From NCBI GenBank assembly GCA_019313915.1, contig JAFDAJ010000014.1, positions 1 to 52,305 on the forward strand: DNA of 52,305 nucleotides, given 5' to 3'. The notes beneath the pieces are model-generated. The model ran no database searches. It had not been told where the DNA came from and worked only from the letters and a program-made list of their open reading frames with translations. Shown here one piece after another: positions 38,833 to 49,738 of the stretch (its first letter is position 1; each line of letters opens with the position of its first letter). This stretch comes from Deltaproteobacteria bacterium. GTDB lineage: Bacteria > Myxococcota_A > Polyangia > Polyangiales > Houyiibacteriaceae. Both the position numbers and the translations under genes were made by a program.

Positions 38833-39153
38833 TTATTTCTTCTTACGAGTCGCGCGCTTCTTGGTTGCACGCTTTTTGGTTGCGCGCTTCTTGGTTGCAC
38901 GCTTTTTGGTTGCGCGCTTTTTGGTTGCACGCTTCTTAGTTGCGCGCTTTTTGGTTGCACGCTTCTTAGTTGCGCGCTTTTTGGTTGCACGCTTTTTGGT
39001 TGCGCGCTTCTTGGTTGCGCGCTTCTTAGTTGCGCGCTTCTTGGTTGCGCGCTTCTTAGTTGCGCGCTTTTTGGTTGTGCGCTTCTTAGTCGCGCGCTTT
39101 TTTGCTGGCCGCTTCTTTGCGGCCTTCTTTGTTCGTCTTTTTGCAGTCGCCAT
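38833..39153 (-). CDS. Histone-H1-like lysine/arginine-rich repeat protein
   Basis: A 106-residue highly basic protein made almost wholly of KKRAT pentapeptide repeats (about 16 units), with a short MATAKRRTKKAAKKRP start and a RKKK end. It resembles the C-terminal tail of histone H1 and the bacterial Hc1/KAAK-type nucleoid proteins known from chlamydiae and myxobacteria. It probably binds DNA or RNA nonspecifically by charge. The ATG at 39153 is chosen since GGAGGAGG lies 6-8 bp upstream; five codons before it are also open. No acidic or hydrophobic core is present. Confidence 0.85.
   Translation of the reverse strand: MATAKRRTKKAAKKRPAKKRATKKRTTKKRATKKRATKKRATKKRATKKRATKKRATKKRATKKRATKKRATKKRATKKRATKKRATKKRATKKRATKKRATRKKK
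38840..39100. repeat. 15-bp tandem repeat encoding KKRAT
   Basis: About 16 copies of a 15-bp unit lie inside the histone-like gene; on the plus strand the unit reads TTGGTTGCGCGCTTC with C/T and A/G exchanges. The variation is nearly all at third codon positions of Lys and Arg, so the peptide repeat is kept while the DNA drifts. The tract can be expected to change copy number between strains. Confidence 0.9.
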
Positions 39154-39195
39154 TTCGACCTCCTCCAAGGTGGGTCAATATTGCAGGTGCACGTA

Positions 39196-42018: not shown

Positions 42019-42969
42019 CTAGTCGCTGGTTATGTAGGCTTTTTCGAGGAGGGTTACGACGACCTCTGCGACCTCTGGGTCCGGTTTGCCGCTGTGGTTC
42101 ATCATGTCGACGAGCGTGTCGTAGTTGAGCGCAAGCTGAATCACGTCCAGTTCCTCGGGCGAAGCGTCACGCAGCGGCTTCTCTAGCGGGGAGACCACGG
42201 AAATCCTAGATTTCAGCGACGGGAGTGCGTCTCCGAGACGCATGATCTCGTCGAGTTGGCGCATACCCTCCATGAGGAGGCCTTCGATGCTGCCCTGAAT
42301 CTCGGTGGGAAATGTGCGCTCCACTTTGGGGAGCAGGTCGAAGGTGCCCTTGTCCCAAACGAGCACGCGATAAAATGCCTTCTCGGGCGGCACCGACTCA
42401 TCGCCATTGACGACGGCGAACTGCACCATGCCCTCTTCGAGGTAAATCGAGCCGACGTCGTCCTCGGTCGTGATCTGCAAGACACCGGTCTTCTTGGACG
42501 CCGAGAACAGCTGAAGGAGATCTGGCAGCGGCACTTCGGCAATGGAGCCGGTCATGGTGCTGACTGGGGATGGTCTCGCGCTCGCGGCGGCAGCATCCAT
42601 CTTGGCCTTGGCATCCTGCACGGAGGCAGACCCGTCGGACGCGACCACTTTGATGATGCTCGTGCCGATCAGGATACGATCGCCCTCCGCCAACTTGGTC
42701 CGAGTGATCTTCTCCCCGTTGACGAAGCTCCCATTCGTCGAACCAAGGTCCTCCAAGAAGATGTCCCCGCTCTCGACGGAAATCTTCGCGTGACGTCGGG
42801 AAACCATGTCCTCGACGAGGACCATCTCCAGCTCGCTGGAGCGCCCAATCACAATCTCTCCGTCCTCAGGAAGAGGAAATTCCCCTCCCTGGTACTTCCC
42901 AGAGATGAAACGCAGCGCCAACGGCAACGCCAGACCTTCGATGACCAATTCCCCTCGCTCCGAACCCAT
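42019..42969 (-). CDS. FHA-DUF4388 (PATAN-type) signalling protein
   Basis: A 316-residue cytosolic protein. An N-terminal FHA domain (residues 15-100: IVIGRSSELEMVLVEDMVSRRHAKI..DLGSTNGSFVNGEKI) binds phosphothreonine. A linker follows, then a DUF4388 domain (about 140-245: GSIAEVPLPDLLQLFSASKKTGVLQI..IYLEEGMVQFAVVNG). This architecture is typical of myxobacterial gene regulation and gliding-related proteins. The C-terminus is helical. The start is divergent from the peptidase-propeller gene by 47 bp. Confidence 0.9.
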   Translation of the reverse strand: MGSERGELVIEGLALPLALRFISGKYQGGEFPLPEDGEIVIGRSSELEMVLVEDMVSRRHAKISVESGDIFLEDLGSTNGSFVNGEKITRTKLAEGDRILIGTSIIKVVASDGSASVQDAKAKMDAAAASARPSPVSTMTGSIAEVPLPDLLQLFSASKKTGVLQITTEDDVGSIYLEEGMVQFAVVNGDESVPPEKAFYRVLVWDKGTFDLLPKVERTFPTEIQGSIEGLLMEGMRQLDEIMRLGDALPSLKSRISVVSPLEKPLRDASPEELDVIQLALNYDTLVDMMNHSGKPDPEVAEVVVTLLEKAYITSD

Positions 42970-43016: not shown

Positions 43017-45986
43017 ATGCCACCGGTCAAGCCTTTGACCGGGAAAGGGGGTGAACAGACGGTTATGGGTTGCTGCGGACCCCATGTTAGAAGGCGAGGG
43101 ATGGCCCAGGTGGCGGCTGCATTGGCTTGTCTGCTGGGGCTTTTGGGGGCGATTCCGGCGGAGGCTCAAACCAAGGACCTGTCCAGGCGGTGGCGGACGG
43201 TCCGGAGCGAGCATTTCGAGGTGAACTACCCGGAGCCCCTGGCTCTGGTGGCCCGACGGGTTCTCGCGGTCGCCGAGAGCTCCAACGCGAAGCTCGCCCC
43301 CCTCCTCGGCCACCAACCCAAGAAGCGGGTCCAGATCGTTCTGACTGACGACATCGATGCTGCCAACGGCAGCGCCACCCCGCTGCACTACAACACGATT
43401 CGGCTCTACGTAAGCGCTCCCGCGGACCTCTCGGTGCTCGGAGATTTTGACGACTGGCTCACCGTTCTGGTGACCCACGAGCACAGCCACATCTTGCACC
43501 TCGACAACATTGGCGGTCTGCCCGCGGTCATCAACGAGATCCTCGGCAAAGTGTGGGCGCCGAACAATCTTCAACCGCGATGGATCATCGAAGGCATAGC
43601 GACGTACTTGGAGTCCGCTGAGACCGCGGGCGGGCGTCTGCGGTCGACGCAGTTCGAGATGTACATGCGCATGGCCGTCCTCGAAGACAACATTCTTCAC
43701 TTCGACACCCTCAACAACCGAACCGATTACTGGCCGCACGGCGACATCTGGTACCTTTACGGATCCCGTTTCATCCACTGGCTCGTCCAGGAGTACGGCG
43801 AAGAGCTCATTGCGGAGATGGCCGAGTGGTATGGAAGCCGCGCCATTCCCTTCAGCGTGAACCGAATGAGCAAACGGCTTACCGGTAAAACGTTCGACGA
43901 GCTCTACGGGCTTTGGATTGCGGATATGCGCCGTCAGTATGGCGAAGTGGAAGCAGTTGTCCGCGCGCAGGGCATGACGAAGGCGCGCCGCATCACGTTC
44001 CACGGCGAGACGGTTCGCGGGCTGCGATTCTCCGACGACAATCGGTTGATCTACTACGCGCAGGACGGACGAAGCGACCCGCAGATCCGCACGCTCGATC
44101 TAGCCAACGGAAACGCAGTCCAGCGCGTCGTGCGTAGCGCCGGGGAGAGTTATCCGACGGTGCACCCGAATGGCGATCTCTATTTCGAGTCCTTCGACGC
44201 GTACAAGACCAACGTCTACCGCTACTATGACCTGTTTAGGTTCGACCGGCGCGGCCAGTGGAACCGTAAGCGCCTGACCCGGGGCCTCCGGGCACGTTAT
44301 CCCGACATCTCCTCAGATGGCCGAGCGATCACGTACGTCCGAAACGACGCGGGCACCCAGAGCCTGTGGATCGCTAGCCTCGGCGACATCGAAGGGTCCC
44401 AAGAGATTCTCGTTCAAAGCGAGCGCTTCGAACAGGTGTATACCCCGCGATTTTCGCCGGACGGGTCGAAGGTCGCTTACAGCGCGTGGCGAAGGGGCGG
44501 CTACCGCGACATCGAAGTGATCGACCTCGCGACTCGACAGATCACGCGCGTGACCCACGACCGAGCGATGGATACCGGGCCCGCATGGTCGCCGGACGGC
44601 AGCTTGCTGTACTTCTCGAGCGACCGGACGGGCATCGCGAACATCTACGCCTGGGCGCCCGCCAACGCAGAGGTGTCGCAAGTCACCAACCTCGTGTCAG
44701 GCGCGTACACACCTGCGCCCTCCCCCGACGGCACGCGACTCGCATACATCGGGTACACCAGCCGCGGATACGACATCTACTTGATCGACCTCGAGCCCGA
44801 TAGCGGCCGCCCGGCGTTTCCGTACGTGGACAATCGGCCGCCACCGAGTGATCCCGACGCCTTGATCTCGGATCTGTCGACGCGATACGTCGGCGCGCGG
44901 ACACTGTACCCGCGGTTTTGGGGCATCGATCTCGAGGAAGACGCGTTCGGGCGTCAGCTCGGGATTTTCACACGAGGCGAGGACGCGGCTCAGTTCCACC
45001 TCTTCTCTGCGCGCCTCGGGGTCAGCCTCACCGAGGGCTACGTGAACGCCGACCTTCGCTACACGCTGAGACGCCTGCCGCCCGACTTGTCGGTTTCGTT
45101 CTTTCGCCGAGTGACGCCGCGCAGCGGATTCATCGTCAACGGACAACGGAGGCCTTACGTCGAGGACGCATACGGCGGCCGTCTCGGCATCTCCCACGTG
45201 ATACCACGCTCCTTTCACGCGAACCGTATCAGCGCGAGCTACGGACTGACGTGGACGCGCTCGCTCTCGAGCTTCAACGGAACGCTCAGCCCCAACTTCC
45301 CGCCACCTATCATTCCCGCCACGGGCCTCAACGCCGACATTGGGCTTTCATGGAGCTACAACGACGCCCGCCGGCACATTTACGACTACACGCCGTCCGA
45401 GGGACGCACCTTGGGGGCCGCAATCTCGTTCGCGCACCCGGGGATCGGCAGTCAGTTCAAAAGCATTCGAACGTCCTGGTTCATTCGCCGGTTCATCGAG
45501 ATGCCTTGGGCCCAGCACCACGTCGTCGCGTTCCGGTACGGCGGCGGCGCGGGGGAAGACAGCAGGGGCGAGCGGGGGATGTTCTCCTTGGGCGGCTTCC
45601 CGGACACGTCGCTGATCGAGCAGCTCCTCAACTTCGAGCAACTCGGGGGCGTGGCGCTGCGCGGCTACCCGGCGTTCTCGATCGTCGGCGACCGATTTCA
45701 GCTGCTTCAAACCGAGTACCGCTTCCCACTCACACGCGTGCTGCGCGGCCCAGGCACGGTACCGGTGTTCTTCGACCGCATGTACGGGCTGGTGTTCTTC
45801 GACTACGGCAATGCGTACTTCGGGCCGCTCGACTTCAATGACTTCCGCAAAGGCACTGGAGCCGAGATCCTGATGGACTTCACGCTCGGATACTCGCAGC
45901 CCTACACGCTCCGCCTCGGCTTCGCGTATGGATTCGATCGGGGCGGGGGGACGCAGTTCTACGTGAACTTCGGCAGGCCGTTCTAA
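43017..45986 (+). CDS. HExxH peptidase / TolB-like propeller / outer-membrane barrel protein
   Basis: A 989-residue exported protein. A signal-like segment ends at PAEAQ (residues 30-51). A gluzincin-type peptidase MA-like domain follows, with VTHEHSHILHL (His154, Glu155, His158) and a third ligand Glu192 in WIIEGIATYLES. Next come PD40/TolB-like beta-propeller repeats (about 340-600: FSPDGSKVAYS, WSPDGSLLYFSSDRTG, PSPDGTRLAYIG). The rest (about 680-989) looks like a BamA/TamA-type outer-membrane barrel ending in Phe. The first ATG has AGGAG 6 bp upstream but leaves a long N-region; an ATG at 43065 or 43101 is possible. Confidence 0.82.
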   Translation: MPPVKPLTGKGGEQTVMGCCGPHVRRRGMAQVAAALACLLGLLGAIPAEAQTKDLSRRWRTVRSEHFEVNYPEPLALVARRVLAVAESSNAKLAPLLGHQPKKRVQIVLTDDIDAANGSATPLHYNTIRLYVSAPADLSVLGDFDDWLTVLVTHEHSHILHLDNIGGLPAVINEILGKVWAPNNLQPRWIIEGIATYLESAETAGGRLRSTQFEMYMRMAVLEDNILHFDTLNNRTDYWPHGDIWYLYGSRFIHWLVQEYGEELIAEMAEWYGSRAIPFSVNRMSKRLTGKTFDELYGLWIADMRRQYGEVEAVVRAQGMTKARRITFHGETVRGLRFSDDNRLIYYAQDGRSDPQIRTLDLANGNAVQRVVRSAGESYPTVHPNGDLYFESFDAYKTNVYRYYDLFRFDRRGQWNRKRLTRGLRARYPDISSDGRAITYVRNDAGTQSLWIASLGDIEGSQEILVQSERFEQVYTPRFSPDGSKVAYSAWRRGGYRDIEVIDLATRQITRVTHDRAMDTGPAWSPDGSLLYFSSDRTGIANIYAWAPANAEVSQVTNLVSGAYTPAPSPDGTRLAYIGYTSRGYDIYLIDLEPDSGRPAFPYVDNRPPPSDPDALISDLSTRYVGARTLYPRFWGIDLEEDAFGRQLGIFTRGEDAAQFHLFSARLGVSLTEGYVNADLRYTLRRLPPDLSVSFFRRVTPRSGFIVNGQRRPYVEDAYGGRLGISHVIPRSFHANRISASYGLTWTRSLSSFNGTLSPNFPPPIIPATGLNADIGLSWSYNDARRHIYDYTPSEGRTLGAAISFAHPGIGSQFKSIRTSWFIRRFIEMPWAQHHVVAFRYGGGAGEDSRGERGMFSLGGFPDTSLIEQLLNFEQLGGVALRGYPAFSIVGDRFQLLQTEYRFPLTRVLRGPGTVPVFFDRMYGLVFFDYGNAYFGPLDFNDFRKGTGAEILMDFTLGYSQPYTLRLGFAYGFDRGGGTQFYVNFGRPF

Positions 45987-46540
45987 ACCTCGAGGATGTC
46001 GATTTCTTTCTTGCCGACGATCTCGTCGACCTTGTGGGTACCGACTTTGACCTTGTCTTCGAGCTCCTTGCGAGCACGGTCAGCGTCGTCCTCGCCGACA
46101 TCTCCTTCCTTCTGAAGGCTGTCGATCATGTCTTTGGCGTCGTGCCGTGCCTTGCGGATCGCGACCTTGCACTCCTCACCCGACTTGCGAGCCAGCTTGA
46201 CCAAGTCTTTGCGGCGCTCCTCGGTGAGTGGCGGCATCGGGATACGAATGATCTCGCCGTCGTTGGACGGGTTGAGGCCGAGCTGCGCCTCCATAATCGC
46301 CTTTTCGATGGGCTGCATCTGGGTCCGATCGAACGGCTTGAGGACGATCATTCGCGCCTCCGGCACCGAGATCGACGCGAGCTGCTTTAGCGGTGTCGGG
46401 GTGCCGTAGTAGTCGATCCGGAGGCCGTCCAGGATGCCTGGGTTGGCGCGGCCCGCGCGAATCTTGGCAAGGTCACGCTTGAGCGATTCGTGCGCCTTGT
46501 CGACGGCGGTGGCCAGTTCTTCCAGTGTTTCAGCAAGCAT
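45983..46540 (-). CDS. frr: Ribosome recycling factor
   Basis: RRF splits post-termination ribosomes together with EF-G. The 185-residue protein has LKRDLAKIRAGRANPGILDGLRIDYYGTPTPLKQLASISVPEARM, then LTEERRKDLVKLARKSGEECKVAIRKARHDA, which are diagnostic. The length is normal. It is the last gene of the rpsB-tsf-pyrH-frr operon, 24 bp after pyrH. Its stop overlaps the stop of the convergent peptidase-propeller gene in a CTAA. Confidence 0.97.
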   Translation of the reverse strand: MLAETLEELATAVDKAHESLKRDLAKIRAGRANPGILDGLRIDYYGTPTPLKQLASISVPEARMIVLKPFDRTQMQPIEKAIMEAQLGLNPSNDGEIIRIPMPPLTEERRKDLVKLARKSGEECKVAIRKARHDAKDMIDSLQKEGDVGEDDADRARKELEDKVKVGTHKVDEIVGKKEIDILEV

Positions 46541-49036: not shown

Positions 49037-49148
49037 AGTGTCAGCGCCAGTGCCGGTGTCAGCGCCAGTGCCAGTGTCAGTGTCAGCGCCAGTGTCAGTG
49101 CCAGTGTCAGTGTCAGCGCCAGTGTCAGCGCCAGTGCAGGTGCAGGTG
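49037..49148. repeat. Degenerate hexanucleotide tandem repeats (AGYGYC)
   Basis: About 16 six-base units AGTGTC, AGCGCC, AGTGCC follow each other without gap from 49037, then two AGGTGC-like units. Longer periods of 18 and 30 bp can also be seen, pointing to growth by slippage of multi-unit blocks. The tract lies directly beyond the stop of the HExxH gene and upstream of the rpsB promoter. Confidence 0.85.
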
Positions 49149-49150
49149 AA

Positions 49151-49738
49151 TTAGTGCCTCAATTCCGACCAGATAGGCGGTTTTTCCGCCTTCGGGTCGG
49201 CCGCACCTAACTGCCGGGCAACGTTTAGGATTTTCGCCGTTGCCTCCAATCCCTCCCGCAAATGCGGCGCCCAGGGCGCCTCCTCGGATCGGGCTGCGCC
49301 CAGCTTCGCCGCCACGGTGGCCGGCTCTCCGTCGTCCGCAAGCGGGTCCTCCGGCAGGTCATCGTAGTAGCTCCGGAAGTCGGTGGTCGGGGCGAGTGCC
49401 TGCCGCAGGCCGTACTTCTCGGTCAACCATGCCTGCAACCGCAGACACGCGTGCTCGCGCGTCACGTCCCGCTCGCTGTCATTGTCGAGACCAAAGTCGG
49501 CAAGGTCGAGACTCTCCACCCCTTCGATCAACGAGTGGCACAGCTCATGAAGAATCATCTGCGCCAGACAATCGTCGGGGTCGAGCGTGCTCGGGGCGCC
49601 GATCGTCATGATGCCCTGCCCGTCGGTGGAAGCATAGACCTCCGCGGAGCGCTGCACTCGGAAACCGATGCGGCCGGCGACCGTTAGCCAAATCGCATCG
49701 AGCGGGTCCAGGTAGGTGTGTTGTGGCGTTCGTTCCAC
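49151..49738 (-). CDS. Putative HExxH metalloprotein
   Basis: A 195-residue protein not assigned to a named family. It has a clear zincin-like motif MILHELCHSLIEG (HExxH near residue 64), followed by an Asp-rich stretch (DLADFGLDNDSERD) and REHACLRLQAWL, whose Glu or His could supply the third ligand. No signal peptide is visible, so it is probably cytosolic. The C-terminal third is Ala/Glu/Pro-rich. Its start is 1 bp from the stop of the phospholipase-D-like gene, so the two form an operon. Confidence 0.72.
   Translation of the reverse strand: MERTPQHTYLDPLDAIWLTVAGRIGFRVQRSAEVYASTDGQGIMTIGAPSTLDPDDCLAQMILHELCHSLIEGVESLDLADFGLDNDSERDVTREHACLRLQAWLTEKYGLRQALAPTTDFRSYYDDLPEDPLADDGEPATVAAKLGAARSEEAPWAPHLREGLEATAKILNVARQLGAADPKAEKPPIWSELRH

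Follow-up and report, generated by a model that had tools for sequence, protein, structure and literature searches.

A putative gluzincin peptidase joined to a TolB-like propeller and an Omp85-type barrel in a protein conserved across a class of Myxococcota

The window analysed here, a 52,305-nucleotide stretch of DNA (contig JAFDAJ010000014.1, Deltaproteobacteria bacterium, class Polyangia), carries on its plus strand a gene (43,017–45,986) whose 989-residue product, as read from its sequence, combines three domains in one chain: a gluzincin metallopeptidase with an intact zinc site, a TolB-like propeller and an Omp85-type barrel. The protein is conserved throughout its class and, in one clade, is linked to a lytic transglycosylase gene. 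We tentatively favor the reading that it is an outer-membrane-anchored periplasmic metalloprotease which would act at the interface of the outer membrane and the peptidoglycan in envelope maintenance, with the propeller choosing its substrates, although our confidence in this falls somewhat short of even. Omp85 proteins are responsible for building outer membranes and for gating them, and the proteases that work alongside, BepA for example, are separate polypeptides. With a zinc-protease site, a TolB-like propeller and an Omp85 barrel fused, a single molecule allows tests of how proteolysis, assembly of the outer membrane and turnover of the cell wall are coupled, and the little-studied WD40-Omp85 subfamily gains a concrete function to look for.

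The reading frame is open exactly over 43,017–45,986 (989 codons plus stop), and an AGGAG sequence is positioned 6 nt before its ATG. Residues 1–50 (43,017–43,166, plus strand) form a probable Sec signal peptide, RRRGMAQVAAALACLLGLLGAIPAEA, with the predicted cleavage site preceding QT; this segment is retained by the close relatives recovered in a similarity search, which are Myxococcota metagenome-assembled genomes. Lipoprotein identity was rejected, as the N-terminus has no proper lipobox. The initial annotation had described an exported peptidase, a propeller and an outer-membrane barrel in a single chain, and this layout is borne out by conservation and profile searches. As possible functions it had suggested barrel quality control, surface release or lipoprotein processing. 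The structure prediction that it had proposed as a check supports the propeller and some of the barrel, whereas the remainder was modeled at low confidence: full-length AlphaFold, run with 16 near relatives in the alignment, reached a pLDDT of 54 and is trustworthy for those two parts only, and the peptidase domain modeled alone reached 48. Because the full-length model is poor, the barrel assignment draws on sequence profiles, motifs and strand count.

The N-terminal domain (residues 51–325; 43,167–43,991, plus strand), supported by conservation, matches of the model to M1 proteins and hhalign, looks like a gluzincin with an intact predicted zinc site. Its HExxH zinc motif is HEHSH (residues 154–158; 43,476–43,490), and the predicted third zinc ligand, E192 (43,590–43,592), lies within RWIIEGIATYLES, is separated from HExxH by 33 residues and aligns with the third-ligand Glu of M1 peptidases. 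H154, E155, H158, E192, E199 and Y246 are all invariant in 83 of 83 aligned homologues, many of which share only 30–40% identity. A chance HExxH motif was rejected on these grounds. The combination that characterizes the Peptidase MA clan (gluzincins), an HExxH motif and a downstream Glu ligand, all conserved, is found throughout the alignment (83/83), in support of the proposed gluzincin with its third Glu ligand. Family models register the domain weakly: Pfam Peptidase_MA_2 (PF13485) scores 14.2 bits against the 989-aa protein, under its gathering score of 32.4 bits; individual relatives weakly touch the Pfam families BSP, M48 and M9 (M48 in one relative, at 0.0043); and the peptidase profile, searched by itself against the PDB, returned nothing significant.

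In its low-confidence model, the peptidase domain most resembles the M1 family. Searches with this AlphaFold model (pLDDT 48) returned M1-family proteins for nearly all of the best 50 Foldseek matches and for all of the best 50 VIA-align rows, and the best M1 match of this same pLDDT 48 model has a Z of 11.7 and an rmsd of 2.5 over 114 residues. The matching part spans model residues 2–132 and takes in the HExxH helix. In a local hhalign comparison with M1 proteins from the same order (46.8%, E 2e-4), the HExxH motifs and the EG(I/F)A third-ligand motifs line up, and YLYG falls on the M1 YxKG; this alignment is obtained in local mode only, as global hhalign gave nothing sensible. The Tyr of YxKG has a catalytic role in M1 peptidases. 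Because YLYG pairs with that motif, Y246 (43,752–43,754) is a candidate M1-type catalytic Tyr. The domain is nevertheless not filed as M1, since the M1 spacing HExxH-x18-E is replaced by x33 (H158 to E192) and the GxMEN exopeptidase motif is absent: the 989-aa protein contains no MEN, and the corresponding stretch reads NGSAT.

The propeller occupies residues about 326–595 (43,992–44,801, plus strand). As had been suggested, it is a TolB-like PD40 propeller, matching Pfam PD40 at E 3.6e-24 and the TolB model TIGR02800 at E 1.1e-38, although at 133.3 bits it remains far below the 343-bit equivalog cut-off of the latter; the nearest structures by sequence search are TolB, as are those by fold (Foldseek E 4.7e-12). 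Identity with the TolB of the Tol-Pal system was rejected, because the score is so far under the cut-off and because the same genome encodes a separate TolB-like protein. TolB binds Pal, and a caution on our preferred reading is that similarity to TolB need not imply binding to Pal or to the wall. In Salinibacter ruber, WP_118831798.1 (annotated as basic secretory protein-like; plasmid pSR116, L062 5581–7482) consists of peptidase and propeller in 633 aa, retaining HExxH and EG and lacking the barrel; the first two domains thus constitute a separate unit. The role of the propeller is probably to serve the peptidase, perhaps by capturing or filtering protein substrates for it.

From residue about 630 to the C-terminus (44,904–45,983, plus strand), the chain is assigned to an Omp85 barrel of about 16 strands. 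The single 989-aa sequence lies below detection by Pfam Omp85, and the barrel emerges with family profiles: PF01103 is detected in 11 of 19 relatives (best 1.8e-8), a profile of the barrel alone picks out BamA 8xnb (E 4.1e-5), and hhalign matches it to BamA barrels from related genomes at 93.4% (E 2.4e-7), compared with 0.0 for a TonB-receptor decoy and 0.3 for an M1 decoy. The Omp85 loop-6 motif, LRGY (residues 881–884; 45,657–45,668), aligns with the LRG of 8xnb and is well conserved among the 83 homologues (L in 78, R in 80, G in 82 and Y or F in all 83). The strand following loop 6 carries FFDYG (FxDxG; residues 927–931; 45,795–45,809), which aligns with FADYG of 8xnb, with D929 conserved in 80/83 and G931 in 81/83. 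The chain ends in Phe989 (45,981–45,983), as first described; among the 59 homologues with a residue at this position, 51 have F and 8 have Y. In BamA numbering, 11 strands precede loop 6 and 5 follow it. The same count, 11 before and 5 after the LRGY loop, is predicted here, with one pre-loop strand placed by us where the model is weak. The earlier description of the barrel as BamA/TamA-like holds for the barrel itself, whereas the POTRA domains of BamA and TamA were not found: a Pfam search of the 989-aa protein at E up to 1 returned no POTRA family, a search that a remote POTRA could escape.

These barrel features bear on a serious rival, unlikely in our estimate, in which the protein is a quality-control factor for the assembly of outer-membrane proteins: the lateral gate would engage unfolded barrels, the propeller would stand in for BamB, and the peptidase would clear away stalled substrates, much like BepA on the BAM complex. 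The barrel does retain both the LRGY and the FxDxG motifs, but the former is not confined to barrel-assembling proteins, being shared by Omp85 relatives with no role in barrel assembly. The failure to find a POTRA domain, the existence of the peptidase–propeller pair without a barrel and a separate BamA-like Omp85 protein in the same genome also argue against this rival. It gains from two precedents, the comparison of WD40-Omp85 proteins with a BamA-BamB fusion by Heinz and Lithgow (PMC4104836) and the degradation or maturation of LptD by the zinc peptidase BepA on BAM (PMC8423444).

The orientation of the chain separates our preferred periplasmic reading from another rival. Following the Sec signal and the logic of the barrel, we assign a periplasmic location to the first 590 residues: Sec would export the protein, a 16-strand Omp85 barrel without POTRA domains would hold it in the outer membrane, and the gluzincin and the TolB-like propeller would face the periplasm. 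Many Myxococcota are predatory, a lifestyle that would suit surface display or release, with the barrel carrying the peptidase across the outer membrane. Such a route has been proposed for the patatin domain of PlpD, a member of the same superfamily (PMC4104836). Export to the surface is less likely than the periplasmic readings, and indeed very doubtful: an even strand number with the last strand at the C-terminus would leave the N-terminus in the periplasm, about 590 residues of folded domains would need to cross, and a single-copy, class-wide gene resembles housekeeping more than weaponry.

The distribution of the family is broad. A family profile search matched 234 of 285 genomes of the phylum at E 1e-20 or better, and by our count about 121 of the 125 genomes sampled from the gene's own class do so, almost always with a single copy, a few of the matches being partial. 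The phylogenetic spread of the three-domain layout, raised as a question at the outset, is thus that of a core gene of the class; the same chain extends into other classes at 30–35% identity, and a scan of viral contigs found no relatives. A bolder proposal sees in the protein a complete machine for envelope quality control, with BamA, BamB and BepA in effect united in one chain, and a core, possibly essential, part of outer-membrane and cell-wall maintenance in the class; this seems to us quite unlikely.

The window places the gene between a divergent neighbor encoding an FHA and DUF4388 protein (42,019–42,969, minus strand; Pfam) and a convergent neighbor, frr (45,983–46,540, minus strand; Pfam RRF), whose end overlaps that of our gene and which closes a minus-strand block of rpsB, tsf, pyrH and frr. 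This arrangement of the FHA gene and the frr block is retained in the window's family and in a few other families of the order, with the FHA gene a conserved neighbor across several families and frr conserved in the window's own family. The divergent FHA gene may share its promoter region with the gene. Two tandem repeats and a further metalloprotease-like motif were also seen in the window: 17.7 copies of a 15-nt unit (38,852–39,117) within a Lys/Arg/Ala-rich, histone-H1-like ORF (38,833–39,168, minus strand); short AGTGCC/AGCGCC-type repeats (49,037–49,137) between rpsB and an HExxH-like gene; and that gene itself (49,151–49,738, minus strand), which encodes a 195-aa protein with an HELCH motif and no Pfam or NCBIfam match, beside a PLD-family gene in a position kept in many relatives.

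The best functional clue comes from a distant clade (loci L063 to L073), where 10 of 11 loci have, after the homologue and in its orientation, a gene for an Slt70-like lytic transglycosylase (SLT plus TPR), with gaps in five of them of −3 (L063), 0 (L064), −3 (L066), 31 (L071) and 0 nt (L073). This linkage, absent from the window's own family, points to peptidoglycan or the outer-membrane/peptidoglycan interface. In five loci of this clade a response-regulator gene lies divergently on the other side of the homologue. FtsX- and EnvC-like genes (named from sequence) that lie near the homologue, but in the opposite orientation, at four loci of a different family offer a weak clue.

Other contexts bear on the proposal that the protein is a dedicated maturation protease for one substrate class, for instance outer-membrane lipoproteins or the exported material of co-encoded transporters. 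Two loci of another family (L055 and L059) have a small lipoprotein-like gene directly downstream. Genes for an ABC_tran_2 permease and for a polytopic membrane protein lie beside the homologue at L056, L057 and L058, sharing its strand in two of the three genomes; in G008 and G151 such genes are upstream of it and co-oriented. These contexts vary by clade and none is retained in the window's family, and we regard this proposal as improbable. Our preferred reading, the periplasmic protease of envelope maintenance, takes its substrates from the transglycosylase link, which makes envelope proteins at the interface of outer membrane and wall the most likely ones. The peptidase would cleave them at the outer-membrane/peptidoglycan interface, and candidates include, for example, wall-linked envelope proteins or wall hydrolases.

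Comparison with known systems sets this protein apart in several respects. With M1 aminopeptidases it shares the EG(F/I)A third-ligand motif and the YxxG tyrosine, and its low-confidence model resembles them in catalytic-domain topology; it differs from them in its x33 rather than x18 spacing and the absence of GxMEN. Like BepA (M48 plus TPR), it appears to be an exported HExxH metallopeptidase with a proposed action at the outer membrane, but it gives no TPR or M48 match (E up to 1) and has its own fused propeller and barrel. It shares with TolB the propeller, at 133 bits against the 343-bit cut-off, and with the 633-aa, barrel-less WP_118831798.1 of Salinibacter ruber the peptidase–propeller module. 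The barrel profile, the loop-6 RG(Y/F), FxDxG and the terminal aromatic residue are common to BamA, which has POTRA domains where our protein has peptidase and propeller, and the same genome encodes a BamA-like protein separately. Neither the patatin domain nor the POTRA of PlpD and type Vd was found in the 989-aa protein. PF00149 is the calcineurin-like phosphoesterase family. For this reason the 'Metallo' Omp85 group in PMC4104836, a paper that labels PF00149 a metalloprotease, should not be confused with our protein. The closest relatives in layout are the WD40-Omp85 proteins, a subfamily with a TolB-like propeller defined by Heinz and Lithgow (2014; PMC4104836); like them, the 989-aa protein has a C-terminal Omp85-type barrel preceded by a propeller closest to TolB and no POTRA that we could find. 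In the literature searched, mostly without subscription journals, we found no paper on a peptidase–propeller–barrel layout, and the main text of PMC4104836 mentions no peptidase domain, nor does the word peptidase appear there. The propeller–barrel layout was therefore known, and what appears to be new, relative to that main text, is the gluzincin peptidase domain that precedes the propeller at the N-terminus.
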